Below are positions 34,059-56,749 of a DNA stretch of 61,485 nucleotides, one piece after another. Below the pieces are notes generated by a model. That model saw nothing but the letters and a program-made list of their open reading frames with translations, made no database searches and was not told the DNA's origin. Position 1 is the stretch's first letter. Every line of letters begins with the position of its first letter. Source of the DNA: Clostridia bacterium (GTDB lineage: Bacteria; Bacillota; Clostridia; Oscillospirales; CAG-272); assembly GCA_017472695.1 (NCBI GenBank), contig JAFUOQ010000032.1, positions 1-61,485 of the forward strand, written 5' to 3'. The translations under genes were made by a program, and so were the position numbers.

Positions 34059-34214
34059 ATGAAATACGTATGTGATGTATGTGGATACGAATACGATGAA
34101 GCGGTAGGCGATCCAGATAACGGCATCGCCCCTGGCACAAAATGGGAGGACTTACCTGAGGATTTTGTATGCCCACTTTGCGGAGTTGGCAAAATTAGCT
34201 TTTCAAAGGAATAA
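34059..34214 (+). CDS. Rubredoxin
   Basis: A 51-aa one-iron electron carrier with both CxxC knuckles: [12 protein letters not shown] and [10 protein letters not shown], plus the conserved [20 protein letters not shown] loop. TAGGAGG lies 8 bases before the ATG. Likely the electron donor to the flavodiiron protein of the same transcript. Confidence 0.97.
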
Positions 34215-34218
34215 AAAA

Positions 34219-34247
34219 ATCGCCACGAAGCTCGTGGCGATTTTTTC
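34219..34247 (+). terminator. Rho-independent terminator
   Basis: ATCGCCACGA-AGC-TCGTGGCGAT followed by TTTTT right after rubredoxin; also serves the convergent gene. Confidence 0.92.
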
Positions 34248-34251
34248 TTTA

Positions 34252-34785
34252 TTATTTGTTGTACACTCTGCGTAGTGCTAAAAGGAAAGCATCAATATCT
34301 CTTAATTTAAATGCATAGTCTATGTTTGTGCGAACAATAAACTTATTAGAAATTAGTTGAGTGCTTGTAATTTGAGAGAATGGGATGCTAGCTAGTGATT
34401 TTTCAATAGGTGAGCCGTTTAGCATAAAACCAACGGAGGTTTTTGTGATATAAACTATGCCGTTGGTATCCTTAAAGCTTCCAACATCAGCAAATACCAT
34501 ATTGTCGTTTTCATTTACAAGCTGTTGCATTTTAGCTTCATGTATTCTTACCAATTGACTTAAAAGAATCTTTAATAACACAAGTGGAATAATAGAGAAC
34601 ACACCAGCAAACAATACTGAAAAAACGATACCACCGATAATTCCAAGATAGCCTAGGCCATGGGGCGCTAAAAGTAAGTACATAATTGCACCAAAGGATG
34701 CACCACCAAATAAGCTGAGTAATATAACTATCGTTAATATAATGATGACAGCTGTTTTAAATATTTTTTTTGCATGCTTACGCAT
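34252..34785 (-). CDS. Membrane protein of unknown function (177 aa)
   Basis: The protein has two membrane helices (about 10-35 and 45-75) followed by a soluble C-terminal half. That half looks like a small beta-rich domain (VYITKTSVGFMLNGSPIEKSLASIPFSQITSTQLISNKFIV), reminiscent of PH-like domains, but the family is not recognised. Start at 34785 has AGGAGG 7 bases upstream. It follows the HgdB-like gene by about 46 bases on the same strand, so it may be part of that transcript. Confidence 0.75.
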   Translation of the reverse strand: MRKHAKKIFKTAVIIILTIVILLSLFGGASFGAIMYLLLAPHGLGYLGIIGGIVFSVLFAGVFSIIPLVLLKILLSQLVRIHEAKMQQLVNENDNMVFADVGSFKDTNGIVYITKTSVGFMLNGSPIEKSLASIPFSQITSTQLISNKFIVRTNIDYAFKLRDIDAFLLALRRVYNK

Positions 34786-34831: not shown

Positions 34832-36094
34832 TTATAAAAGCTTTTCCTTGGCAACCACAAGCATCAATTTTATTCTGTTTTCTTGGTTTACCTTGGTTGC
34901 ACCTGGGTCGTATTCAATATCAACAATATTAAGTCTTGGGTCTATTCTTCGAACCTTGTTTATCATTCCTTTTGCAGCAACGTGACAGGGCAAACAACCA
35001 AAAGGCTGAACAATTACGATGTTTTCATAGCCGTTGTCAGCAAACTCTAGCATTTCAGCTGCTAAATACCAGCCCTCGCCCATGCTATTGCCAATTCCAA
35101 TAACGCCCTCTGCACGCTTCTTTAGGTCATTTACACGTTCAGGTGCTACAAAATTAGGGTTAGCTTCAATAGCGGATATAAGAATATCCTCCATTTTGAA
35201 CATATACTTCATAGCGAACTCTAAAATCGCTTTTTTTGCTTTGTTTCCACCATAAAGCCTCAAGTCCTCAAGTGCACCATTTGTCTTGTAAATTCCAAAG
35301 CCTAAAATGCTAGGAACATAAACCTCACAATCCTGCTCGGCTAGAAATTTTTCCAAATGGTTATTGCCAGGGGCAGAGTATTTAAGGTATAGCTCACCAA
35401 TTACGGCAACCTTTACCTTTGGAGTCTTTTCTACCTTTATGGATGCAAAATCATCTGCAATTGATTTGAGATTTTTCTTAATAGCCTTGGTAGAGAAGCC
35501 CTTGCCATTGGAGAAGCCTTTGCCAAGAGCATCGGTCCACTTGTCAATCATAGCATCCGTTTCACCCTTGTTTACCTCATATGGACGCACTTGATTACTT
35601 ACAATCATAATCATATCGCCATAAATAAGACCGGCAAGAGCCATAAGAAGTGATTTTGGAGAGAGATTGATTCCAGAATTAAGCTCAAGTCCCCAAATAT
35701 TCGCCGAAATAAATGGAACATTAGGATAGCCAGCCTTTTCAAAAGCCTTTCTCATAAGGTTGATATAGTTGCTATCGCGACAACCACCACCGGATTGCGT
35801 TATTACCATAGCAACCTTGTCAGGGTCGTATTTGCCACTCATAATAGTAGCAAGCATTTGCCCTGTTGTTAGCATAGCCGGATAACACATATCGTTATGT
35901 AAGTATTTAAGCGCAAGCTGTAATACCTCTGGGCCGTCATTTTCCATAATTTCAATCTTAAAGCCCTGTCTTAAAAGAATAGGCTTTAATATTTTAAAAT
36001 GAATAGGAGCCATGCTAGGAGAGAGAATAGTGTAATCCTTTTTCATCTTGAGAGTGAATTTAACTCTATCTCTGTAAGGTGAATTTTTACTCAT
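34832..36094 (-). CDS. HgdB-like 2-hydroxyacyl-CoA dehydratase/benzoyl-CoA reductase-type protein
   Basis: A 420-aa protein related to the C-terminal part of large BadF-type activases and to HgdB/BcrB-like iron-sulfur subunits. Possible cluster cysteines are in DMCYPAML, GGGCRDSNY and FGCLPCHVA. Such proteins use a low-potential cluster for difficult reductions. Start at 36094 (AGGAGGACGGAA-ATG) overlaps the stop of the 974-aa BadF protein by 8 bases, so the two are translationally coupled and probably form one complex. Together they equal a ~1400-aa single protein seen in other Clostridia. The family includes proteins linked to anaerobic plasmalogen synthesis; orthology is not proven. Confidence 0.82.
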   Translation of the reverse strand: MSKNSPYRDRVKFTLKMKKDYTILSPSMAPIHFKILKPILLRQGFKIEIMENDGPEVLQLALKYLHNDMCYPAMLTTGQMLATIMSGKYDPDKVAMVITQSGGGCRDSNYINLMRKAFEKAGYPNVPFISANIWGLELNSGINLSPKSLLMALAGLIYGDMIMIVSNQVRPYEVNKGETDAMIDKWTDALGKGFSNGKGFSTKAIKKNLKSIADDFASIKVEKTPKVKVAVIGELYLKYSAPGNNHLEKFLAEQDCEVYVPSILGFGIYKTNGALEDLRLYGGNKAKKAILEFAMKYMFKMEDILISAIEANPNFVAPERVNDLKKRAEGVIGIGNSMGEGWYLAAEMLEFADNGYENIVIVQPFGCLPCHVAAKGMINKVRRIDPRLNIVDIEYDPGATKVNQENRIKLMLVVAKEKLL

Positions 36095-39011
36095 TTCCGT
36101 CCTCCTTGCTTTGTTGCTCAATTGCCGCAATAAGGCTTCTTAAACGAATCTTAATAGCGCCAAGGTTTGTAACCTCGTCAATTTTTATTTGTGTATATAG
36201 ATTGCCATAGTATTCTAGTAGACTTCTTACCTCGTCTGTTGTAAGTGCATCAAGACCACAACCAAAGGATACCAAGTGTACAAGATACATATCATTCTGT
36301 GACGCAACGTATTTGGCTGCAGAGAATAGTCTTTGGTGGTATGTCCATTGGCTAAGCAGGTTAACCTTAAATTTGGGCACCATGCAAGCCACAGCATCCT
36401 CGGAAACGACAGCGAAGCCAAGTGCACAAATAAGCTTATGTATACCGTGGTTAATCTCTGGGTCTGCGTGGTAAGGACGACCTGCAAGAACAATAATTTT
36501 CTTGTCCTCACGTCTTGCCTCACTAACTATTCTTAAGCCCTCTCGGTTTATATCTGCCATATAATTATCGTATGCCAAATAAGCCTTTTTACACGCTTTC
36601 TTTACTGCACCATTTTTAAATGCACCAAAGTGCTTTTCAAGAACCTTCTTAAAGCGTTTAGCAAATTCACGTCTGTTGTGAGGACCAACATAATCATTGA
36701 TATATTTAATCTTGCCAAAGTTTAGAGTATTAGCCTCAATAACCTCAGGATATCCTGCAATAACCGCACAGTTGTAGTTGTTTTTAGCCTTCTTTTCATT
36801 GAAATTGTATGTCATACAAGGATAGAAAATCGCATCAACATTCATTTCAATTAGCTTTTGAATATGACCGTGCATCATTTTAGCAGGGAAGCATACAGTA
36901 TCTGACGGAATAGTGCCTTGACCGTTTAAATATAGCTTTCTGTTGGAGAATCCACTCATTTTAACAGTAAAGCCAAGCTCTCTAAATAGTGTATTCCAGA
37001 AAGGATACATTTCGTACATATTAAGTCCCATAGGCAGACCTATGACACCTCTTGTTCCCTCGCCCTCTGGCAAGGAAGCAAGCTTTTTAAGCTTATATTC
37101 GTAAAGATTTAACGAGTCGTCCTGCGCCTTATTGGTTACAGGCTTCTCACAACGGTTTCCACCGATAAATTTACGGCCACCACCGAAATCATTTACAGTT
37201 AACTGACATTTGTTGTTACATCCGTTACATGTAACACTCTTTATTGAATATGTAAAATTCTTTAGCTCCTCGTAAGAGAGAATAGCAGAATATCCGCTAT
37301 GCTTTTTCATTTGATTAGCATAAAGTGCCGCACCATAAGCACCCATCATACCAGCAATGTCAGGACGAATAACGTGCGCACCAATCTCTTGCTCAAATGC
37401 ACGGAGAACTGCATTGTTTAAGAATGTTCCACCTTGAACAACGATTTTTTTGCCAAGCTCATCAGCGGAGTGAACTCTTATAACCTTATAAAGAGCATTT
37501 TTAACAACGCTTATAGAAAGACCTGCTGAAATATTTTCAACAGTAACGCCTTCCTTTTGCGCCTGCTTAACAGACGAGTTCATAAATACAGTACATCTAG
37601 AGCCCAAATCAACAGGGTTATTTCCAAAAAGTCCTAGATTAGCAAATTCTTCAATAGGATAGCCAAGTGAGCTTGCAAAGGTTTGTAGGAATGAGCCACA
37701 TCCGGAGGAGCAAGCCTCGTTTAAAAATATATTATCAATAGCACCATTGCGAATTTTAAAGCACTTCATATCTTGTCCGCCAATGTCAATAATAAACTCA
37801 ACATCTGGCATAAAGTATTTAGCCGCGGTAAAGTGAGCAACGGTTTCAACAACACCAATATCAATGCCCAAGGCACTTCGCATCATATCCTCGCCATATC
37901 CTGTAACAGCACTTGATACAATTTTGATATTAGGATATTTTTCGTACATTTCTAAAAGAGTTTCTCTTACAACATCAATAGGCTTACCTTGATTTGATTG
38001 ATATTTAGAGAAAATAATAGCACCATCCTTGTCGGTGAGAACTACCTTTAAGGTTGTAGAGCCCGAATCAATACCAAGGTATGCATCACCCACGTATTCG
38101 ATTCCTTCTTTTCTTGGAACACTGTTGGCACTGTGACGCTCAATAAACTCGTTGTATTCTTCCTTGCTTTTGAACAAAGGAGAGAGGGAGGATTCAGCGC
38201 CAAAATCGGTTTTTTCACCGATTATTTCATATGCCTTGGCTAAATCCACCTTTTCTTCAGCATAGTAAGCCGCACCAAGCGCAACAAAAACAAGTGAATC
38301 CTCTGGACACACACCCTCGCATTTAAGAGTTTTGTCAAACGCGCGTCTCAATTCAGACAAGAAGGTAAGTGGACCACCAAGATATACGACATTACCCTCA
38401 ATAGGGTGTCCTTGCGCCAAGCCTGTAATTGTTTGGTTAACTATTGCATAGAAAATACTTGCAGAAATGTCCTCTTTTCTTGCACCTTGGTTAAGAAGAG
38501 GTTGAATATCTGTTTTAGCAAATACTCCACAGCGAGAAGCAATAGAGTAGATCTTTTCATAATTTTTTGCAAGCTCGTTCATTTCGCTTGTTTCAATTTG
38601 CATAAGGCTCGCCATTTGGTCGGCAAAAGCACCGGTACCACCAGCGCAAGTACCGTTCATACGAACCTCTAAATTGCCCTTTAAAAAGAGAATTTTAGCA
38701 TCCTCTCCGCCAAGCTCAATAACGACATCAGTGTCAGGGAGTCTATGACTTATAGCAACCTTTGTAGCATAAACCTCTTGAACGAAGGGCACACCCGCCC
38801 TTTCAGCAAGTCCCATACCGGCAGAGCCCGATACAGCACATACTACGGGCTCGGTTATATTAAATTTGTCAATAAGTCCCTTTATGACCTCACGGGTCTT
38901 TTCCTTTATCATTGCGAAATGACGCTCATAGCTTTTATGAATAAGGTTTCCCGCATCGTCAAGAACAACACATTTAATAGTAGTTGAGCCTATATCAATA
39001 CCAATTCTCAT
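36087..39011 (-). CDS. Double BadF/BcrA-type ATPase with DUF2229 domain
   Basis: A 974-aa protein. The first ASKHA ATPase (about 1-260) has GIDIGSTTIK, IELGGEDAK and the cluster motif CAGGTGAFADQMA at C122. A second (about 315-580) has GIDSGSTTLKVV, IDIGGQDMK and CSSGCGSFLQT. A DUF2229 part follows, with TCNGCNNKCQL and GGNRCEKP cysteines and later FYPCMTYNF. These activases use ATP to lower the potential of an electron passed to an HgdB-type partner, here the next gene. Start 39011 has AAAGGGG upstream. The two-gene set resembles plsA/plsR-type plasmalogen proteins of anaerobes. Confidence 0.88.
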   Translation of the reverse strand: MRIGIDIGSTTIKCVVLDDAGNLIHKSYERHFAMIKEKTREVIKGLIDKFNITEPVVCAVSGSAGMGLAERAGVPFVQEVYATKVAISHRLPDTDVVIELGGEDAKILFLKGNLEVRMNGTCAGGTGAFADQMASLMQIETSEMNELAKNYEKIYSIASRCGVFAKTDIQPLLNQGARKEDISASIFYAIVNQTITGLAQGHPIEGNVVYLGGPLTFLSELRRAFDKTLKCEGVCPEDSLVFVALGAAYYAEEKVDLAKAYEIIGEKTDFGAESSLSPLFKSKEEYNEFIERHSANSVPRKEGIEYVGDAYLGIDSGSTTLKVVLTDKDGAIIFSKYQSNQGKPIDVVRETLLEMYEKYPNIKIVSSAVTGYGEDMMRSALGIDIGVVETVAHFTAAKYFMPDVEFIIDIGGQDMKCFKIRNGAIDNIFLNEACSSGCGSFLQTFASSLGYPIEEFANLGLFGNNPVDLGSRCTVFMNSSVKQAQKEGVTVENISAGLSISVVKNALYKVIRVHSADELGKKIVVQGGTFLNNAVLRAFEQEIGAHVIRPDIAGMMGAYGAALYANQMKKHSGYSAILSYEELKNFTYSIKSVTCNGCNNKCQLTVNDFGGGRKFIGGNRCEKPVTNKAQDDSLNLYEYKLKKLASLPEGEGTRGVIGLPMGLNMYEMYPFWNTLFRELGFTVKMSGFSNRKLYLNGQGTIPSDTVCFPAKMMHGHIQKLIEMNVDAIFYPCMTYNFNEKKAKNNYNCAVIAGYPEVIEANTLNFGKIKYINDYVGPHNRREFAKRFKKVLEKHFGAFKNGAVKKACKKAYLAYDNYMADINREGLRIVSEARREDKKIIVLAGRPYHADPEINHGIHKLICALGFAVVSEDAVACMVPKFKVNLLSQWTYHQRLFSAAKYVASQNDMYLVHLVSFGCGLDALTTDEVRSLLEYYGNLYTQIKIDEVTNLGAIKIRLRSLIAAIEQQSKEDGNE

Positions 39012-39025
39012 AGTTTCCCCTTTCA

Positions 39026-41971
39026 TTAAATCTTTTTCATTCGACTGAGGTATCTAGTTCCTATCTTAGACCATTTAAAGCCTACATTTTTAAGCTCATT
39101 CACAGTAAACTCATTGCTCATAGGAATATTTTTCGATGTTGAAGCAATAGAGTTATAGAATGATAAAACAGCTACGTCCTTATCATCAATGGATGCCTTG
39201 AGTGACTCCTCAAATACCTCGTGCGGTACCTTTTTGATACGTTTGAAATATTTTTTCTTGAATATATCAACAGTAAATAGCTGAGGGTTATATAGGTTGT
39301 AAATATTGTTAACCCTGTTGTAAAGAGCAAGTCTGACATAAGCATCTGCACACTCGTCAACAGGAGTGAAGTCAATAGGATACTCTGCAAGCTCCTTACT
39401 ATATTTTCCAATCTTCAAAAGACCTCTAAAACGACCAATAAAGCCATTATCCTGTGAGTTCTTTTGGAACATACCATCAGACATTCTCCAGGTTAAGTTA
39501 CCAATACGGAAAATATTCGCCTTAAGACCTGCCTCTCTTGCAAGCAAGACAAGCTCCTCGGCTTTATATTTTGAGTGAATATAAACATTTTGTACGTGGT
39601 TTTGACCTATATCAAGGCTAAACTCGTCAAATGTGGCATCTGGATTCTTTTGCTCAACAGTACCAGAGCCGTGAATACTAGCGGTTGATGTGTGCTGGAG
39701 CAAAGCACCGGATTGCATACAGAAATCAATAACATTTTGAGTACCTATAACATTTGTATGCTCAAAATCCTCATATCGTCCTGCGTGATTTACGTTAGCA
39801 GCGGTGTGGATAACCATATCAACCTTTTTAAGTAGCTCGTCATAAGCCTCGTCAGACAAGCCAAGCTTTGGCTCGGTAATATCGCCAACCTTAACCTTAA
39901 ATCTAAAGTATTCATATTCTTTAGGGAAGTAGTAGCGAAGAACGCTTTTGAGCTTTTTCTCATTACGAACAAGGCAAATAACGTGCATATTTCTCTTTAA
40001 AAGCTCACGAAGAATATGAGAGCCAAGGAAGCCAGTTGCACCTGTAAGAAGAACGTATTTAACCTCATTTGTGTGTAAAATACTAGAGTTGTGCTTAATA
40101 AGCTCGTTTACATTTATGTATTCCTCGGCTTCATAGCTGCTTCTGTTAACAAGGAGAGCCTTTTCAAGCTGTTCTGCGGTTGGGTTTTCATAAATTTCCT
40201 GCGCTTGAATACCGATAAGAGCAGCAGCCTCAAAGGCAAGCAAGCTATATCCACCTAAATCAAAGAAGTTGTCCTTGATACCAATATTTTTGCGACCGAG
40301 AACATTTTCAAATGCCGCAATAATTCTTTTCTGTTCCTCTGTTGTTGGTGGAACATATACTACTGATTTATTTACAACGACCTCTTCAATCATTTTTAGG
40401 GCCTCACCACGCTTGATTTTCAATGTGGTAGTTTTTGGAAAATCTCTTGCAATAAAGTCGATAGCAACCATTCTTTTGTAAGAAGGAAGGGAAGCGTTGA
40501 GCGCCTTTACCCCTTGTCTTATGCCTTGAACCAAGTTTTTGTCGTTGATGTTTGTAGGTTGAATTGCTACGCAAAGCTTACCATTTCCATCATAAACCAT
40601 AACATCCTTAACGCCGTCAATGGTCAAAATGCGAGCCTCTAGCTCCTCTGGATATATATTTTTACCGTTATCAAGGATGATTAGGTTCTTTGAGCGACCG
40701 GTGATATATAGATATCCGTCCTCGTCAAAATAACCAAGGTCACCAGTATGTAGCCAGCCATCCTCTGTAAATGCCTCTGCTGTTGCCTCTGGATTTTTGT
40801 AATATCCAAGTATAACACCAGAGCCCTTAACAAGGATTTCGCCATCCTCTATTTTTACATCCATATAAGAAACAGGCTTACCAACAGAGCCAAATCTGTT
40901 TTCTCTTGGATAGTTAGCAGAGATAAGTGGCGCACATTCAGTCAAGCCATAGCCCTGATACATATTCACACCGAACTCGTCAAATGCCTCGGCAATCTCT
41001 GGGCGAAGAGCAGCACCACCAACGATTACATTGGTGAGGTTTCCACCGAATCTATTAAGAAGCTTTTTGTATAGTGAGCGCCTTATATTAATTTTGAAAA
41101 ATTTACAAACGCGATTGATTTTCTTTGCAATTCCTATCTTGCGCTTGTTAGCACCGGAGGAAATGCTTTCCATAACCTTTTTGTAGAATACCTCAGCAAT
41201 GGTAGGAACTACCAATATAACGGAAGGCTTGAATTTATTGAGATTTGAAACAATATTTTCGATTTTGTCGTTTATACAAACGGTTGCACCACAATAAAGC
41301 ACACCAAGGTTGTCAACAGTCAATTCAAAGGTGTGGTGAATAGGAAGAACGGACATAACAACAGGAGCCTTCTTTACATTCTGTGCAAAGTCCATTCTAT
41401 ATATGTCATTAATGTTGGATACAATGTTCTTTTGGCTGAGCATTACACCCTTACTCATACCAGTTGTACCAGAGGTAAACAAAATTTCAGCTAGTGCGTT
41501 AGGGTCAATAGCAGGGAGAGGAGCAGGCTTGGTACGAAGAATCTCACGGAAACGAGTACCGGAGAAGCTTATTACCTCTTTAACATTATTGTCAGCCTCC
41601 TCAATGCTGTGCATCATAGTCTCAAATTCCTCAGAAAGGAAGACCATATCAACATCACCCATAACCAAAAGGTTAAGGATTTCTTCCTCTGAAAGCATCC
41701 TATCAATAGGAATAACAACGTTAGCACTACATGCAATACCTAAAAATGCGGTAACCCAATGATAGCTAGTAGAGCCTATAATAGCAACGTGCTTGCCTTG
41801 TAAGCCTTTTTTGACAAACCAAGAAGCAACCGCCTCAACGTCCTTTCTAAAATCTCTAAATGTCTTGCTTACAACTGAATCCTCAACAATATATCTGTAA
41901 GCATCTCTGTCTCCATAGGCCTTCTCAATTTCCTTAATATATTCCTGTAAATCGACAAGCATTTTATTCAT
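39026..41971 (-). CDS. Long-chain acyl adenylation-carrier-thioester reductase (CAR-like)
   Basis: A 981-aa three-domain enzyme. The adenylation domain (about 1-530) has FTSGTTGMSKGVML, YQGYGLTECAP, HTGDLGYFDEDGYLYITGR and the catalytic lysine in TTTLKIKRGE. It resembles long-chain acyl-CoA synthetases more than amino-acid activating domains. A carrier domain (about 545-620) has the phosphopantetheine serine in FFDLGGYSLL. The reductase domain (about 640-981) starts VLLTGATGFLGSHIL and has the YIHSK catalytic pair. It should activate a fatty acid and release it as aldehyde or alcohol. It ends 14 bases before the BadF gene, so all three form one operon. Confidence 0.88.
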   Translation of the reverse strand: MNKMLVDLQEYIKEIEKAYGDRDAYRYIVEDSVVSKTFRDFRKDVEAVASWFVKKGLQGKHVAIIGSTSYHWVTAFLGIACSANVVIPIDRMLSEEEILNLLVMGDVDMVFLSEEFETMMHSIEEADNNVKEVISFSGTRFREILRTKPAPLPAIDPNALAEILFTSGTTGMSKGVMLSQKNIVSNINDIYRMDFAQNVKKAPVVMSVLPIHHTFELTVDNLGVLYCGATVCINDKIENIVSNLNKFKPSVILVVPTIAEVFYKKVMESISSGANKRKIGIAKKINRVCKFFKINIRRSLYKKLLNRFGGNLTNVIVGGAALRPEIAEAFDEFGVNMYQGYGLTECAPLISANYPRENRFGSVGKPVSYMDVKIEDGEILVKGSGVILGYYKNPEATAEAFTEDGWLHTGDLGYFDEDGYLYITGRSKNLIILDNGKNIYPEELEARILTIDGVKDVMVYDGNGKLCVAIQPTNINDKNLVQGIRQGVKALNASLPSYKRMVAIDFIARDFPKTTTLKIKRGEALKMIEEVVVNKSVVYVPPTTEEQKRIIAAFENVLGRKNIGIKDNFFDLGGYSLLAFEAAALIGIQAQEIYENPTAEQLEKALLVNRSSYEAEEYINVNELIKHNSSILHTNEVKYVLLTGATGFLGSHILRELLKRNMHVICLVRNEKKLKSVLRYYFPKEYEYFRFKVKVGDITEPKLGLSDEAYDELLKKVDMVIHTAANVNHAGRYEDFEHTNVIGTQNVIDFCMQSGALLQHTSTASIHGSGTVEQKNPDATFDEFSLDIGQNHVQNVYIHSKYKAEELVLLAREAGLKANIFRIGNLTWRMSDGMFQKNSQDNGFIGRFRGLLKIGKYSKELAEYPIDFTPVDECADAYVRLALYNRVNNIYNLYNPQLFTVDIFKKKYFKRIKKVPHEVFEESLKASIDDKDVAVLSFYNSIASTSKNIPMSNEFTVNELKNVGFKWSKIGTRYLSRMKKI

Positions 41972-42029: not shown

Positions 42030-42057
42030 ATTATACTATAAATTTTAAAATTTACAA
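42030..42057 (-). promoter_or_regulatory. Promoter of the CAR-BadF-HgdB operon
   Basis: The minus strand has TTGTAA (42052-42057), 16 bases and TATAAT (42030-42035), about 60 bases before the start of the reductase gene. Confidence 0.6.
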
Positions 42058-42471: not shown

Positions 42472-44376
42472 ATGATAAAAAATAAGCATGAAAAATACGC
42501 GCCTTTTGAGAGTAACTTTCTTTCCGTTACATTTAATAAGCAAACAGGCGGGATTGCCTTTTTGGGCATTGAATCCGGTGGGCGCGATAGAGATAAGCAC
42601 GCAAGCTACAATTTACTTATCCCTGCATATGGAGCTATTTCGGGCGCTTTAAAAAAATCGTTACCTATAAGTGTAGAGATAGATGAAAACAAAGCGCTTT
42701 TTAAAAACGCACAGGGCAGTAGCACAATTTACAATATAATAGATGACCGTACAATGAAAATTGAGCTTGAAAAAATAAACGCAAACGATATTTTTTCGAC
42801 AAGACTATCAATAAAAACCGCACCACCTACAATTTGGACAAGTGCGGAGCCAAAGCACCTAAAAAGCACGAATCCTCTAACTATCTATAAAACTAGATAC
42901 TCCTTGCCACTTATTATACATTTTCCTGATTTTGGTAGGCTTGAAATTTCCTCAACATCAGATGATGTTTTTTGTGTAGAGGAGCTTCAAATGTCAAGTG
43001 ATTTCACTGGCATTGAGCTAGGTGGTAAAAATTTTGCAGTTAACCACAATAGAATGCATGCATTACATTATGGTAGCTCGTTTTTAACCTTCAAATCAAA
43101 AAAGCCACTTGACAAGGCAGAGCTAACCTTTAAGGTATTAGATGAGTGCTATCCAAAATTTCAACATGAAAACGACGAGAAATTTAATGGCTTAAAGCGC
43201 AATTGGCTAAACGCCTTTGCTCTGAATAGAGAGCTTTTTGATATGGGTGATAATATATATTTCCACGGCACAGCTCATTTAGCAATACATATGAAATCCG
43301 ACCTGCTTGAGATAATGAACGATGATAACGAGCAATTTAAAATAATTCGCCGTGCGTTTGAAAGACAGGTAAAAAGAAGCTTTAAGCAAGCTCAAGCTCC
43401 AAGCGGAGAGGTTAGCGTTTGTTGCTTCAATAGAGAAAAGAAAAAGAGTGATGGGTGCGCAAGTGACTCAACTCCGGGTGCTATAATTTCGCTAATGGGA
43501 ATAGCAAAGTGGAATTTGCCTTTTGCAAAAAAACTACTTCCTAATGCAATAAAAGCCGCTGACTTTATTATGTCATTTGATACTGACGGAGATGGAATAT
43601 TTGAAGTACCATACCCAGGTGATTATATGTTCCAGCCTGCGGATAATGGATTTTATTGCAACTGGTGGGACAACTTTGCATTTGGTCATAAGGATATTTA
43701 TTTTAACTATCTTTGCCATCGCGCTCTTCGTGAGCTTTGTGAGCTTTTGGAAAGCCTTAATAGAAACAAGGAAGCAGAAAAATATAGACATCAGCTTGAA
43801 AAATTTGATAAATCATTCTTTGATACCTTTTATAATCCGGAAACCGAGCTTATGGCAGGCTGGATAAGTAGAAATGGAAAGGTGCACGATTACGGCTTTA
43901 CATTTGCTGTGTCTATGGGTATTAATGAGGGACTTATTTCTAAGGAAATAGGCAAAAAAATGCTAAAGAAGCTCCTTGCTATAATGAAAAAAGAGGGCTA
44001 TGGTGACCTTCGATTTGGTATCCCTGGAAATGTTATGCCAGTAGCTCAAATCGATACAATCAACTGGCCATGCATGAGTGACTGGGGACAATACGAAAAT
44101 GGTGGACTTAATGGTATGAACGGCTTCCATTTCCTAACCTCTATGTACAAGGTAGGACTTGAAAAGGAAGCGGACAAAATTCTGTTCACTATACTAAACA
44201 CCTATGAAAAGCAAATGACACATTCAGGACTTATGCCGGGCTATTGCCAAAGCGTTGACTGGCGTACCAAAAATGGCGTACCCTGTGGCTATAATTATCT
44301 GGCTGATAACTATTATTTCTTACTTTCTGTATACGCAGGAAAATACAAAATACCACACTCCGCGGTTGTTAAATAA
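42472..44376 (+). CDS. Predicted six-hairpin (alpha/alpha) glycosidase, cytosolic
   Basis: A 634-aa protein whose C-terminal 400 residues read as an (alpha/alpha)6 barrel of the six-hairpin glycosidase superfamily. Landmarks are FDTDGDGIFEVPYPGDYMF with NGFYCNWWDNFAFG, and YENGGLNGMNGFHFLTSMY. The N-terminal 230 residues are beta-rich, as in GH families with a supersandwich domain. No signal peptide, so it probably acts on imported oligosaccharides. Likely acids lie among DTDGDG, WWD and DWGQYENGG, but the exact family and substrate are not identified. Confidence 0.7.
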   Translation: MIKNKHEKYAPFESNFLSVTFNKQTGGIAFLGIESGGRDRDKHASYNLLIPAYGAISGALKKSLPISVEIDENKALFKNAQGSSTIYNIIDDRTMKIELEKINANDIFSTRLSIKTAPPTIWTSAEPKHLKSTNPLTIYKTRYSLPLIIHFPDFGRLEISSTSDDVFCVEELQMSSDFTGIELGGKNFAVNHNRMHALHYGSSFLTFKSKKPLDKAELTFKVLDECYPKFQHENDEKFNGLKRNWLNAFALNRELFDMGDNIYFHGTAHLAIHMKSDLLEIMNDDNEQFKIIRRAFERQVKRSFKQAQAPSGEVSVCCFNREKKKSDGCASDSTPGAIISLMGIAKWNLPFAKKLLPNAIKAADFIMSFDTDGDGIFEVPYPGDYMFQPADNGFYCNWWDNFAFGHKDIYFNYLCHRALRELCELLESLNRNKEAEKYRHQLEKFDKSFFDTFYNPETELMAGWISRNGKVHDYGFTFAVSMGINEGLISKEIGKKMLKKLLAIMKKEGYGDLRFGIPGNVMPVAQIDTINWPCMSDWGQYENGGLNGMNGFHFLTSMYKVGLEKEADKILFTILNTYEKQMTHSGLMPGYCQSVDWRTKNGVPCGYNYLADNYYFLLSVYAGKYKIPHSAVVK

Positions 44377-44784: not shown

Positions 44785-44816
44785 ATAATTAGTATCAAAT
44801 GATAGGTTGGCATAAA

Positions 44817-45656
44817 ATGGATAAGTTAATAAAAAAAATTAGATTAGAAGCAAAAATGAATCAGGAACAGTTCGCGAAAGCTCTCGGAACTACTGTTCTT
44901 TCAATCAATCGTTGGGAAAACGGAAAAACATATCCTAACAAGATGGCTCAAGGCGCACTCCTGAAGTTTTGCAAGGAGCATAATATCAATTTGTTTGATT
45001 ATGTGGTAAAAAGTGCAAGTAATGAATCAAATGAGAATCTTGTGCTTTATCATGGCTCTAAAAATGGTATAGTTGGAGATATAGCACCAAAAAGTCGTAG
45101 CATGTGTGACTTCGGTAAAGGCTTCTATATGGGAACAGATCCAAGCCAGCCACTAACTCTTATCTGTGATGAGAATAAGCCGGTGTTTTATGCGGTTGAA
45201 TTCAATCTTGACGGACTTAAGGTGCTGAATGTAGATATTAACCTTGACTGGGCAATGCTTATTGCATATTACAGAGGATATATGGAAGAGGTTAAGGGGA
45301 GCGAAATTTACGAAAAGTATGCAAATATGGCAAAAGGATACGATGTTATTCTTGGCTATATTGCAAACGATAGAATGTATCGTGTAATGAAAAGCTTCTT
45401 TGAAAAGGAAATTACGGATGTTGCACTCCTCAATAGCTTATCAGCACTTGACCTTGGCAGACAATATGTGGCAATAACAGAAAGAGCCTGTAAGCAAATT
45501 AAAATATTAAATGAAAAGACATTATCTCCTCTTGAACTTGGAATATTAAAGGAAAGAAGCATCGTAAGACGAGAGGAAGGTATAGCACTTACAGAAAATG
45601 TACTTAAGCAATACAGACGAGAAGGAAAATACTTCGACGAGATTATAGGAGGTTAA
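44817..45656 (+). CDS. HTH-DUF3990 fusion (ADP-ribosyltransferase fold)
   Basis: A 279-aa fusion. Residues 1-62 are an XRE-type helix-turn-helix (IRLEAKMNQEQFAKALG, TVLSINRWENGKTYP). Residues about 72-240 match DUF3990, a family in the ADP-ribosyltransferase fold. Its three signature parts are LYHGSKNGI (His), FGKGFYMGTDPSQ and RQYVAITERA. DUF3990 genes often pair with a small DUF3791-like partner as suspected toxin-antitoxin units. Here the DNA-binding part is fused to the presumed toxin, and the next gene starts one base after the stop. The shorter start (AGGTTGG before the ATG) is preferred. ADP-ribosylation is inferred, not shown. Confidence 0.83.
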   Translation: MDKLIKKIRLEAKMNQEQFAKALGTTVLSINRWENGKTYPNKMAQGALLKFCKEHNINLFDYVVKSASNESNENLVLYHGSKNGIVGDIAPKSRSMCDFGKGFYMGTDPSQPLTLICDENKPVFYAVEFNLDGLKVLNVDINLDWAMLIAYYRGYMEEVKGSEIYEKYANMAKGYDVILGYIANDRMYRVMKSFFEKEITDVALLNSLSALDLGRQYVAITERACKQIKILNEKTLSPLELGILKERSIVRREEGIALTENVLKQYRREGKYFDEIIGG

Positions 45657-52450: not shown

Positions 52451-55400
52451 ATGAAAACGAAAAAAATAGCAATAAGCATTTTATTAACACTTGTAATGGT
52501 GCTTGGCTTGCTTGCCATTATGCCATTTACAGCATCTGCTGCGGCAATCAACGCCGTATGGTGGACGGAAGCAAGTGACAACACTGACTTCACGGCAAGC
52601 TTTGACGACGAATGGATATCGAGCAGCGGCTGGTACAAACTAAAGAAGTACAACGAAGCAAGTGAAAAATACGTCCAAGTACAGGGTGGCTATGGCTGCG
52701 GATACGTAGGCACAAACACGCTGTTGGATTTTGAAACAGCTATCCGTCAGAACGGTAGCGGTAAGTACAAGGTTACAATTGAAACGACGTCGGGCACGAC
52801 GTATGAGAGCGCGGAAAAGACCTATACCTTTGAAGGGGCTTTGGATGCACCCCAAAACCTCCGTTGGTACGGCGAGAGCGCCCTTTGGGATTCCGTCGAG
52901 GGTGCGGATAATTACTACGTTTGTCTCTATTACAAGAGAGAGGGCGATACAAGCTTCAGACCTTGGTCATCGGCATCGCTTCAAAGCTCGAAAAGCTCTT
53001 GTGCTTTTACGGGAGAGCTCTCAAATCCCGGTACCTATTATTTCACGGTAGAAGCAAGCTCTACGGACGAAATGCTTGTAAGCTCTTCTGCCAAGAGCCC
53101 CGAGAAAACGGTTTCATACACCTATTCCGATCTGAACGCGCATTGGGGCGACGTTAGTAGGGATCAGAGAAAATACACGCTGTATTGGAATAACGTACCT
53201 GATGCAACGGGATATTACATGGTGTTATCCAAAAAGAACGGTGAGGAATATCAGCCCGTTAGTGGCTTTGAAAACAGGCTAAAAAAATTAACAGGACTTG
53301 ATCTTTACGCTGTAATGGAAGCAAATGGAGAGGGCGATTACAAGGTGGATTTCTTCGCCTTTAACACCTCGCCTACGATCCGTGTGTCAAACGAGGTATC
53401 TATCGAGATCACGTTTACCAATTGCGAGCATAGCTATACAAAGAAGATACAAGAAAGCTATTACCTTCACTCCGCAAGCAGTGATTGCACGTCAAAAACA
53501 GAGTATTACTACGCTTGTGCGCATTGCGGCGAAATGGCACCCAAGGAAGCGCAGTACGTTTACGAGAGTGATATCGTCGAGCACGATATGAGCGCAGGCT
53601 ATCAGGCAGACGGTACGACGCATTGGCTTGCCTGCGCGAAGTGCGATTACGCAGAATATCAAAGACACACCCTTGATGCAAACAACTATTGCTCAGTGTG
53701 TGACACCACAGTTTACGGTGTTTGGCTTGGAGATATACAGATCACAAGCAAGAACTGCGACGATATTACGGGTGACGGCAGCGCCTTCTATATTCCCGAG
53801 CAAAACCGCCTGTTCTTGACTAACTATACCGATCCCGATACCAGACGCGTGGGTACACCTATAACCGACCCCGATACCGGATCTGAATACATTGCAATGA
53901 TCTACGCCGAAACCGGCTTGAATTTGCGTCTCCGTGGTGAGAACTTCCTGTATGAGGATGCGGGCGACTTTGGTATGCAGTACGGCGTAGTGGTAGAAAA
54001 CGGGGATTTGAAGATCGAAGGCGCGGGTAGCCTTTACACCAACGCCACCATGGGCTTCTACACCTTAGACGGAGATATTTATATTGATAAAAACGGCGGT
54101 CTGCTTGATGTTGTAGGTTACTACGCAATCCGATGCGAATATCATAATCTTTATATAAATGACGGTAAGGTGAAGCTTCGTTCCCACGCAGGTAACGTGT
54201 ACACAAGCGCACCCGTGCTTGACGATTACGGTTGCTACTATGCGGAAATTTCCAACGACTATGGCGGAGCTGATCCTGAGGAATACAGACCTACTACAAA
54301 TATCAAATATTTCTACATTGAGCCTGCCTATACGGTAACGATTGAGCCATTTGAATGCGAGGGCGATTATATCACGGAGGTGCTTCGTTATGGCGCTGAG
54401 TACGAACTCCCCGCATGTCCGTATACGGCTCCCGCAGGCAAAACCTTTTACAAATGGGGCGTAACACCTCCGGGTAATATGTATGAAGCGGGTAAAAAGT
54501 TCACCATAACCGAAAATTTAGAGCTTATGCCTTTGTGGCAGGCAATCGCGCCTGACTCGCTTACCGCAACCTATAGCGGCACGATCCTTGCAGGCAACAA
54601 AATAGCTCCCGAAAATATCAGCATCACGCTGACCTATAACGATTCCTCAACTCAGCCCGTAAACGCAGGCGAGGTTGAATATTGGTACGGCGGCGTTAAA
54701 ATAGCAGACCCCATAAATTACGTGTTCGGCGCGGAGCTGATTGGCGACGTGAACATTACCGTTAAATACTCGGGACTTGAAACCACAATGGCTGTAAAGG
54801 TCGTTGGTCACGAGATAACCTTTAACGCAAACGGCGGTACGGGAGATATGGCAAAGACCGAATACGTTGGCGAATATACCTTGCCTACCTGCACCTTTAC
54901 CGCGCCCACGGGCAAGCAGTTCAAGGGCTGGGCTACCTCCGCTGACGGAGCTATAATAGAAGCAACGACCCATAACGTAACCGAAAACGTAGAGTTCTTC
55001 GCCATTTGGGAGGATATTCCCTCGACTCCCACAACTCCTATTACGTCCATCTCGGTTTCGGGTGCTGATCTGCCCGAGGTTGGCGAAACGAAGGACGTTA
55101 TGGAATTTACCCCTGACTCACTTACCTACGGTGGTGAATACAAAATGGTAGGCAGAGGTTTCCAAAAATACACAGGAACTGAATGGGTTGACGTTTCGGA
55201 TACTGAAAGTCTTGAATACGGTGTAAAATACAGAGTAAACCTTGTGCTTGCACCGAACGAAGGATATGCGTTTGCGGATTCCATTACCTCTGATGATGTG
55301 ACTTTTAACGGCAAAGCGGGTATATTTGAAACCTTGATATCGGGCGTTGGCTACGCATCGATTTTCTATGAATTCTCATACGAAGCACCTGCAACCGATT

Positions 55401-56749
55401 ACGGCATCACTATTGCAAAAAAGAACGGCACAGAAACCGTTGGTGTGCTTATCACCCCCGAAAACTACACCGACGTACTCGGTGACGGCACAGTTTCCTA
55501 TGATCCTACCACCAATACCTTAACGTTAAATAACTACGTTTACAATGGTGTGGGAGCGGATGATTGTGATATAGGTTACTACGGTTTGGTGGCGGACATT
55601 CCTGCTGAAGGTCTTACCATTGTTTTAGTTGGAACAAACAGTATCACGGTTAGTGGTAGCGAGTCTGCCGGTATGATATTCTTTGGTAGTGGCGACCTTA
55701 TTATTAAAGGCAACGGCTCGCTTTCAATAAATTCGGGAATGTTCGGCATAACCGTTCAAACGGATAGTGGAAAACTTACAATCGAGAATGCTAAATTTAA
55801 CATTACAACCACAGGTGCTATGGCTATTGGTGTTCAAGCAAACGATTTTGTTATGAATAGTGGTAATTTGAAAATTACTGCATCTATGATAGGCATTGGA
55901 ACTTCCGAAGAAGAGGGAATCCATATCAATGGTGGTTCGGTAGAAATCGGTACTGCCATAGGTGGATATGCTTTCATCTACGCGGAAATTACTCGTGACG
56001 TTACTTATAATCCTATCAAGCCCGACCTTTCCGGTTATGTTGGCGATTATAATATGATTGCTAGCATTGATGCAACTGGTAGCGACGCTAGTGAATTTAA
56101 CGAAGAATATTTGAGTTCTTATAAATACGTTAAGATAGAACCCCTTCACGTTCACGACCACGGTACGACTTGGGTAACCGATGCAAACGAGCATTGGAAC
56201 GAGTGTGCTTGCGGAGATAAGGCAAACAAGGCAGCTCATACAGACAGTGATACGAATGGAAAGTGCGATGTTTGTGGTGCTGACGTTCCCGTAGCGCCTC
56301 CTTCTCATACTCACGACTACGGTACTGCCTGGGAAAGCGATGCAAACGAGCATTGGAACGAATGTGCTTGCGGCGACAAGGCAAACAAGGCAGCTCATAC
56401 CGATAGCAATAACGACGGCAAGTGCGATACCTGTGAGTATCAAATGTCAGTACAAGACCCAACAGACTCAAACGACCCAATTGACTCAAACGACCCAATT
56501 GACTCAAATGATCCAATTGACTCAAATGATCCAATTGACTCAAATGATCCAACAGACTCAAACGATCCAGCTGACACAGAAGACATAGACGAGCCAGACG
56601 AGCCTGAAAAAGGACTCTCAGGCGGTGCGATTGCAGGTATTGTAGTTGGTTCAGTGGCAGTAGTCGGCACTGGCGGATTTGCTCTAATTTGGTTTGTTAT
56701 CAAGAAGAAAACTTGGGCAGACCTTATTGCAGTGTTCAAAAAGAAATAA
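52451..56749 (+). CDS. Large multidomain surface protein with C-terminal membrane anchor
   Basis: A 1432-aa exported protein. Signal peptide 1-31 (cut near TASA/AA). Fibronectin-like beta modules fill about 35-325. Zinc-ribbon-like CxxC/His segments (CAHCGEM, CAKCDYAE, CSVCDTT) follow near 350-420, then a carbohydrate-binding-type beta region (VWLGDIQITSKNCDDITGDG), repeated later as GVLITPENYTDVLGDG. InlB-like repeats (FNANGGTGDMAKTEYVGEY...FKGWAT) and Ig-like modules lie between. Two H-rich repeats HDHGTTWVTDANEHWNECA and a DPIDSN linker precede a terminal helix GAIAGIVVGSVAVVG with KKK. No LPxTG. The first two-thirds are much richer in G+C than neighbours. Confidence 0.85.
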   Translation: MKTKKIAISILLTLVMVLGLLAIMPFTASAAAINAVWWTEASDNTDFTASFDDEWISSSGWYKLKKYNEASEKYVQVQGGYGCGYVGTNTLLDFETAIRQNGSGKYKVTIETTSGTTYESAEKTYTFEGALDAPQNLRWYGESALWDSVEGADNYYVCLYYKREGDTSFRPWSSASLQSSKSSCAFTGELSNPGTYYFTVEASSTDEMLVSSSAKSPEKTVSYTYSDLNAHWGDVSRDQRKYTLYWNNVPDATGYYMVLSKKNGEEYQPVSGFENRLKKLTGLDLYAVMEANGEGDYKVDFFAFNTSPTIRVSNEVSIEITFTNCEHSYTKKIQESYYLHSASSDCTSKTEYYYACAHCGEMAPKEAQYVYESDIVEHDMSAGYQADGTTHWLACAKCDYAEYQRHTLDANNYCSVCDTTVYGVWLGDIQITSKNCDDITGDGSAFYIPEQNRLFLTNYTDPDTRRVGTPITDPDTGSEYIAMIYAETGLNLRLRGENFLYEDAGDFGMQYGVVVENGDLKIEGAGSLYTNATMGFYTLDGDIYIDKNGGLLDVVGYYAIRCEYHNLYINDGKVKLRSHAGNVYTSAPVLDDYGCYYAEISNDYGGADPEEYRPTTNIKYFYIEPAYTVTIEPFECEGDYITEVLRYGAEYELPACPYTAPAGKTFYKWGVTPPGNMYEAGKKFTITENLELMPLWQAIAPDSLTATYSGTILAGNKIAPENISITLTYNDSSTQPVNAGEVEYWYGGVKIADPINYVFGAELIGDVNITVKYSGLETTMAVKVVGHEITFNANGGTGDMAKTEYVGEYTLPTCTFTAPTGKQFKGWATSADGAIIEATTHNVTENVEFFAIWEDIPSTPTTPITSISVSGADLPEVGETKDVMEFTPDSLTYGGEYKMVGRGFQKYTGTEWVDVSDTESLEYGVKYRVNLVLAPNEGYAFADSITSDDVTFNGKAGIFETLISGVGYASIFYEFSYEAPATDYGITIAKKNGTETVGVLITPENYTDVLGDGTVSYDPTTNTLTLNNYVYNGVGADDCDIGYYGLVADIPAEGLTIVLVGTNSITVSGSESAGMIFFGSGDLIIKGNGSLSINSGMFGITVQTDSGKLTIENAKFNITTTGAMAIGVQANDFVMNSGNLKITASMIGIGTSEEEGIHINGGSVEIGTAIGGYAFIYAEITRDVTYNPIKPDLSGYVGDYNMIASIDATGSDASEFNEEYLSSYKYVKIEPLHVHDHGTTWVTDANEHWNECACGDKANKAAHTDSDTNGKCDVCGADVPVAPPSHTHDYGTAWESDANEHWNECACGDKANKAAHTDSNNDGKCDTCEYQMSVQDPTDSNDPIDSNDPIDSNDPIDSNDPIDSNDPTDSNDPADTEDIDEPDEPEKGLSGGAIAGIVVGSVAVVGTGGFALIWFVIKKKTWADLIAVFKKK
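56456..56563 (+). repeat. 18-bp tandem repeat encoding DPxDSN units
   Basis: Six 18-base units (GACCCAATTGACTCAAAC and close variants) encode DPTDSN/DPIDSN in the linker before the membrane anchor. A repeat of this form can change copy number by slippage without breaking the frame. Confidence 0.85.

Follow-up and report, generated by a model that had tools for sequence, protein, structure and literature searches.

What does a gene for a predicted acyl-acid reductase do directly ahead of a gene pair of the kind that makes plasmalogens in Clostridium perfringens? The question is raised by contig JAFUOQ010000032.1 (61,485 nucleotides, the whole of which we call the window), from assembly GCA_017472695.1 of a Clostridia bacterium (Oscillospirales; CAG-272). 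Its minus strand carries, in this order, genes for a protein with adenylation, carrier, and reductase domains (hereafter the reductase), for a PlsA-type protein, and for a PlsR-type protein (Table 1). The reading that we favor, to which we assign a probability of about 0.4, is that these genes constitute a horizontally spread operon of anaerobic gut Clostridia in which the acyl-acid reductase would make a fatty aldehyde and a derived PlsA/PlsR would convert it to a vinyl- or alkyl-ether lipid.

The second and third proteins have the two BadF domains, the DUF2229 part, and the HgdB-like part that mark the PlsA/PlsR family. We collected 109 PlsA and 104 PlsR rows, reduced to 86 and 82 after identical sequences were removed, and built a PlsA tree and, for the reductase, an adenylation-domain tree (below), both by quick searches with support from the Shimodaira–Hasegawa-like approximate likelihood ratio test (SH-aLRT) only. 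The PlsA tree had one distant outgroup row and long branches for Listeria, Collinsella, Fusobacterium, and Haliovirga, and the C. perfringens and Ger sequences were not among its rows. In this 86-row tree the window PlsA and nine others preceded by the same reductase formed one clade (support 100). This reductase-linked clade of 10 rows was nested in a 33-row group (support 100), the other 23 members of which are ordinary split proteins, including that of Subdoligranulum variabile. Next to it, 21 rows of fused proteins of approximately 1,400–1,600 aa make up a group of their own (support 98), with members from Listeria, Collinsella, Acetoanaerobium, and the window genome itself as a second copy, and the fused Haliovirga protein falls outside both the split and the fused groups. 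The window PlsA is 40%–63% identical to the ordinary PlsA-type proteins with which it was compared (Listeria 48%, Haliovirga 40%), 52%–63% to ordinary split PlsA, and 60%–63% to its nearest ordinary relatives, and the window PlsR is 51% identical to the PlsR-type protein of Subdoligranulum. Among the matches listed for a sample of the order (394 genomes, 256 of which matched at 1e-250), identities jump from 63% to the clade's own 82%–93%; among those listed for a sample of the class (291 genomes, 179 matched at 1e-100), the best ordinary PlsA reached 62%. At most two candidates were scored per genome in these class and order scans and in the class scan for the reductase described below, with strict E-value limits. 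On this phylogeny the window pair is nested within the PlsA/PlsR family.

This placement, among split PlsA proteins and away from the dehydratase branch, upholds the first-pass annotation, which had assigned the pair to the PlsA/PlsR type and had named amino-acid 2-hydroxyacyl-CoA dehydratase systems as the alternative. We reject that alternative because the pair lies inside PlsA and because the dehydratase-type proteins that we fetched are distant from it (26% identity for a Paraclostridium protein, 21%–33% for a three-gene set of Monoglobus). Dehydratases of this type, benzoyl-CoA reductases, and DCCP share with the window pair BadF activase domains, related cysteine motifs, and the fold predicted for the 420-aa protein, albeit from a low-confidence model, but they differ in gene arrangement and belong to another branch; a PDB sequence search with the window PlsR returned nothing significant (best E value 0.52). 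The same annotation had thought the division into 974 and 420 aa notable. It is not, and we have dropped it as a novelty: the founding case, plsA–plsR of C. perfringens (CPE1194/1195), is itself a two-gene operon (PMC12838417; PMC8788747), and the class contains many such split pairs. The single fused plsA gene, described in PMC12838417 as reported from facultative anaerobes, is common in Clostridia too, in both our class and our neighborhood samples. The window genome's own fused homolog (1,420 aa, contig C3, L072:7304-11566) belongs to the ordinary fused group and is approximately 49% identical to the window pair in its PlsA part and 39% in its PlsR part.

What sets the pair apart is a set of substitutions beside the cysteines presumed to hold its iron-sulfur clusters. 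All 12 PlsR proteins of the reductase-linked clade have Asp107 and Cys370, next to cluster cysteines Cys105 and Cys367, whereas the other PlsR rows with letters at these columns have Ala107 in 72 of 72 and Asn370 in 70 of 70. The clade PlsR thus departs from an Ala107/Asn370 rule that is a product of this analysis rather than of the literature, and we therefore call the pair a derived branch and not simply a plasmalogen synthase. In all, the clade shows nine changes at conserved PlsR columns, as against three or fewer in each of 42 other clades. Cys361, present in 66 of 72 other proteins, is kept in only three of 10 of the clade, and S101 is not exclusive to it, being found also in one ordinary PlsR (L202). 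In the DUF2229 part of the clade PlsA, P754A and V756I lie near cysteines and Q917H lies further off. The cysteines that are invariant in the family are all retained: Cys70, 105, and 367 of PlsR and, for PlsA, the 12 that are invariant in ordinary rows (Cys127, 166, 439, 443, 478, 600, 603, 607, 626, 712, 753, and 923). Because otherwise invariant residues beside cluster cysteines have changed, the claim of the first-pass annotation that the pair carries out the same chemistry as the plasmalogen enzymes is in doubt. Another clade-specific change beside the cluster was seen in 13 fused PlsR proteins (L072, L114–L125; the window's genus accounts for 12 and another genus of the family for one), which have an extra cysteine beside the second cluster cysteine (GGCCRASNY rather than GGGCRASNY).

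We turn to the reductase, in which a FadD-like adenylation domain and a carrier domain precede an NAD(P)H-dependent domain of the thioester/fatty-acyl reductase kind (order A-T-R) and whose Pfam matches include AMP-binding and NAD_binding_4. Its adenylation domain lies in a tree group of 46 rows (SH-aLRT 99), the 37 non-module members of which are all stand-alone acyl-CoA-synthetase-like proteins of approximately 500–610 aa from the sampled Clostridia, 31%–39% identical to it. Outside this group fall three nonribosomal peptide synthetase (NRPS) adenylation domains and FadD, EntE, EntF, Aas, and MenE of Escherichia coli, several of these reference branches being long and their placement unsure; the tree does not include a fetched carboxylic acid reductase (CAR; L186) and an NRPS fragment (L133), neither of which was matched to the adenylation domain by BLAST at 1e-6. 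The grouping agrees with the earlier description of this part as resembling acyl-CoA synthetases. The adenylation motifs, GGxS, GATGFLG (once GATGYLG), and YxxxK are intact in the window protein and in its 11 orthologs wherever their contigs reach; we take GGxS to be the carrier motif, GATGFLG (GxTGxxG) the Rossmann motif, and YxxxK a reductase-domain motif. Because these motifs are intact, the protein should be an active acyl-acid reductase, and its substrates are probably fatty acids. The order of domains and the set of motifs are those of CARs and of NRPS terminal reductases such as AusA and MxcG, but the CAR and NRPS proteins that we aligned are only 24%–30% identical to it, and its score with the NCBIfam CAR model NF041592 (180.6 bits) is below the cut-off of 1300. 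Three NRPS-like proteins from other genera of the family or order (L131:7183-14412, L132:5576-9766, and L133:6-2330; the first two are of 2,409 and 1,396 aa) have a C-terminal part 27%–30% identical to the reductase by local BLAST, and in the PDB, too, it was NRPS terminal reductases that the carrier-reductase part matched. It is possible that this part derived from such NRPS-like proteins. A search for phosphopantetheinyl transferases gave one match (open frames of 169–182 aa) in each of four genomes, which does not imply action on the carrier of the reductase.

Is the association with the reductase peculiar to this contig? A full-length reductase was found in four of 57 neighborhood genomes, all four belonging to the window's genus, which contributed 29 genomes, and in a class sample (391 genomes, matches at 1e-100) only the window's own genome appeared among the matches listed. 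When each species was represented by a single genome and scanned with two peptide patterns only, 12 loci came up: 11 orthologs at 69%–83% identity, three of which lie on the contigs already matched within the genus, and a Paenibacillus protein of 24% identity. The ortholog genomes are metagenome-assembled genomes of Clostridia, with titles that include Clostridia bacterium, Lachnospiraceae bacterium, Clostridium sp., and Ruminococcus sp., many from herbivore hindgut (among the hosts named are sheep, water deer, roe deer, goat, and water buffalo). The order reductase–PlsA–PlsR was seen directly in 11 of the 12 genomes, including the window's; in the remaining genome a contig end cuts off the reductase, and PlsA begins at base 2 of a different contig. 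Uniqueness to the window contig, which the first-pass annotation had named as fatal to its proposal, is excluded by the 11 orthologs. Conversely, tblastn searches with the reductase (1e-4) gave no match in a set of 106 loci of 4–19 kb, repeats included, at approximately 90 distinct places; the set consisted of 104 ordinary plsA/plsR loci (approximately 88 distinct places) and two outgroup loci (L097 and L098). Seven of the 12 module genomes carry an ordinary fused PlsA as well.

Some of the genomes that share the module are otherwise far apart. We compared MutS of the window genome with that of the 11 other module genomes, one of which (G470) gave no match. For three genomes MutS (87%–93%) and PlsA (89%–92%) agree, but for seven others MutS is only 49%–63% identical to that of the window whereas PlsA is 82%–90% identical. 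Because of this discordance, the three genes appear to have been transferred together between distant gut Clostridia, the module moving as a unit. Flanking genes differ between lineages, and a member of the genus with 94% MutS identity (G012, 87% complete) shows no module. Nonsynonymous divergence (dN) was 0.05–0.12 and synonymous divergence (dS) 1.1–2.7 where dS could be computed, namely in nine of 24 comparisons with the window (two of eight for the reductase) and in two of three between L106 and L107; these dS values are near or past saturation, and some gene starts in the relatives are approximate.

How might the three proteins work together? In the reading that we favor, the adenylation domain would activate a long-chain fatty acid as acyl-AMP and load it onto the phosphopantetheine of the carrier domain, and the reductase domain, with NAD(P)H, would release the chain as a fatty aldehyde. 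The aldehyde would then combine with a glycerol hydroxyl of a lyso-lipid to form a hemiacetal. The ATP-driven BadF domains of PlsA would inject low-potential electrons into the iron-sulfur sites of DUF2229 and PlsR, and at these sites the hemiacetal would be dehydrated to a vinyl ether (or reduced to an alkyl ether). Ordinary PlsA/PlsR, in contrast, would reach the hemiacetal level by reducing a phospholipid ester; in the mechanism given as proposed in PMC8788747, the diacyl precursor undergoes two successive electron reductions and is then protonated and dehydrated. A review states that plasmalogen formation in bacteria drew on long-chain aldehydes rather than on alcohols (PMC9702350). Moreover, the myxobacterial protein ElbD, annotated with fatty-acyl-reductase-like (FAR), acyl-CoA synthetase (ACS), acyl carrier protein (ACP), and acyltransferase domains, is described as needed for most of the ether lipid of Myxococcus xanthus (PMC9131029), and it therefore offers a precedent for a reductase of this kind in an ether-lipid route. 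Compared by domain description rather than by sequence, ElbD shares the ACS, ACP, and FAR-like domains with the window reductase but has its FAR domain at the N-terminus, contains an acyltransferase domain, and acts in an aerobic pathway (PMC9131029). The window protein is arranged ACS-ACP-reductase with the reductase domain at the C-terminus, shows no acyltransferase in a Pfam scan, and is encoded beside PlsA/PlsR. Supply of an aldehyde is the simplest way of joining the PlsA/PlsR mechanism, the use of aldehydes, and ElbD. A more specific version holds that the operon is a second, aldehyde-entry route to anaerobic ether lipids, in which a fatty-acid reductase is combined with a PlsA/PlsR whose remodeled iron-sulfur site, possibly with Cys370 as a fourth cysteine ligand, acts on a glycerol hemiacetal; this we offer tentatively and consider somewhat unlikely. 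As to the candidate ether-lipid pathway of the first-pass annotation, the family of the pair, the synthetase-like adenylation domain, and the conserved neighbor speak for it, and the split lends it nothing.

Several observations weigh against our reading. A route through a hemiacetal requires a lyso-lipid as acceptor, and beside the module no gene beyond the three was found to be common to all lineages, although few flanking genes are annotated. The reductase scores below the cut-off of every NCBIfam model among the best 25 of 124 matched, so that its acid substrate is not fixed, and whether it stops at the aldehyde or proceeds to the alcohol cannot be read from its sequence. The seven clade-specific changes in PlsA are unexceptional, as two nested fused clades show 10 and 11; hence only PlsR stands out in number. 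Finally, no second PlsA was found in five of the 12 genomes (which, being metagenome-assembled, may have gaps), and this would be compatible with ordinary plasmalogen synthesis by the pair as well. The pair could be a plasmalogen synthase of the ordinary kind, with diacyl-phospholipid esters as its substrate; the reductase would then be an operon partner with an unconnected role, for instance in producing fatty aldehyde or alcohol for some other lipid or in removing free fatty acids. The retained domains and 12 invariant cysteines of PlsA and its identity to ordinary split PlsA are as this explanation would have them, but it leaves unexplained the clade-wide changes beside the PlsR cluster cysteines and the ordinary fused copy kept in seven genomes, and linkage of the three genes across apparent transfer argues for one pathway. 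We consider it unlikely.

The changed surroundings of cysteines in both catalytic parts (A107D and N370C in PlsR; P754A, V756I, and Q917H in DUF2229) might instead mean that the pair has left glycerolipids altogether and acts on the product of the reductase or on another small acyl compound, the operon product being a secreted or signaling fatty compound and not a membrane ether lipid. The patchy distribution of the module, like that of an accessory trait, and the PDB matches to NRPS terminal reductases would suit such a role; the adenylation domain, however, is synthetase-like and not NRPS-like, and the flanks, as far as they are annotated, hold no further gene common to all lineages, which makes this explanation quite doubtful. 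Least probable to us is that the pair is a glycerol ester reductase like Ger of Thermotoga and Desulfatibacillum, making saturated alkyl ethers from chains that the reductase supplies or recycles. Ger is a PlsA homolog with two BadF domains, as is the window PlsA, and a 2026 paper associates two PF01869 domains with Ger (PMC13274423). But Listeria PlsA, from a plasmalogen producer according to the review cited above (PMC9702350), also has two PF01869 stretches, as do the proteins of Fusobacterium and Subdoligranulum, an ordinary split PlsA of the order, and the fused PlsA of the window genome. With two stretches in all five ordinary proteins scanned (L094, L072, L095, L096, and L056), we have dropped the number of BadF domains as a mark of Ger, and PMC13274423 itself states that primary sequence cannot at present separate Ger from PlsA.

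The features of the operon are collected in Table 1. The three genes lie where the first-pass annotation had placed them, with its 8-base overlap between plsA and plsR and with a gap of 14 bases between reductase and plsA. We chose the ATG at 39011 as the start of PlsA for its ribosome-binding site; the first ATG would give 979 aa.

Table 1. Features of the operon and its surroundings in the window
Feature	Position	Strand	Description
Terminator-like hairpin, operon end	34213..34247	-	strong; 16 pairs, then T run
Fourth gene, membrane-type	34252..34785	-	177 aa; own ribosome-binding site
PlsR-type (HgdB-like) protein	34832..36094	-	420 aa; HGD-D Pfam match below threshold
PlsA-type protein, BadF-BadF-DUF2229	36087..39011	-	974 aa; two PF01869 stretches, PF09989
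Reductase, adenylation-carrier-reductase	39026..41971	-	981 aa; PF00501, PF23562, PF07993
Promoter-like site TTGTAA-16-TATAAT	42030..42057	-	about 60 bases before the reductase start; consensus match only
Divergent neighbor	42472-44376		634 aa; no Pfam match
DUF3990 protein	44799-45656		helix-turn-helix domain at N-terminus
Large protein	52451-56749		1,432 aa; one Listeria-Bacteroides repeat match
Large protein, adjoining	56811-59495		894 aa; no Pfam match

Promoter-like sites are abundant in the region (44 found, as against 24.8 in shuffles), which makes the evidence for the one in the table weak, and alignment of the regions upstream of the reductase genes, judged by eye, revealed no common operator. 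The membrane-type gene is probably cotranscribed with the operon. Pfam and NCBIfam scans of its product gave no match, and we exclude it from the module, as no match to it was found beside the module in relatives. The divergently transcribed neighbor has homologs of 75%–78% identity near the module in two relatives (L053 and L054) but is likewise excluded on the relatives' neighborhoods. In three relatives (L106, L107, and L108) genes for a thioredoxin and a pyridine-nucleotide disulphide oxidoreductase (annotated in L107) follow plsR on the same strand; these were not matched beside the module in L102–L105, L110, and L111.

How much of this is new? In domain content and invariant cysteines the window pair matches PlsA/PlsR of C. 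perfringens, where it is split in the same way, and of Listeria and Enterococcus, where it is fused; it differs in the preceding reductase, in the residues beside the PlsR cluster cysteines, and in the presence of an ordinary fused copy elsewhere in most of the genomes. In the literature searched, outside which most subscription papers lie, "plasmalogen" never occurred together with "carboxylic acid reductase" or "thioester reductase," whereas one paper has it with "2-hydroxyacyl-CoA dehydratase." The parts belong to known families, and the conserved combination of three genes with an altered PlsR is, by these searches, undescribed. It suggests an undescribed branch of ether-lipid synthesis in uncultured gut bacteria.

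Anaerobic plasmalogen synthesis is known from one enzyme family, the relation of which to the alkyl-ether enzyme Ger is not yet readable from sequence. The operon is a natural variant of that family; what bacterial lineages appear to exchange as one package is a dedicated acyl-acid reductase together with specific changes next to the cluster cysteines. It bears on whether anaerobic ether lipids can start from a free aldehyde and on which PlsR residues set the substrate. If the more specific version of our reading is correct, a single mobile operon would combine fatty-acid reduction of the ElbD kind with radical chemistry of the PlsA kind, and such an aldehyde-entry route could explain the old observation that anaerobes incorporate long-chain aldehydes fed to them into plasmalogens.

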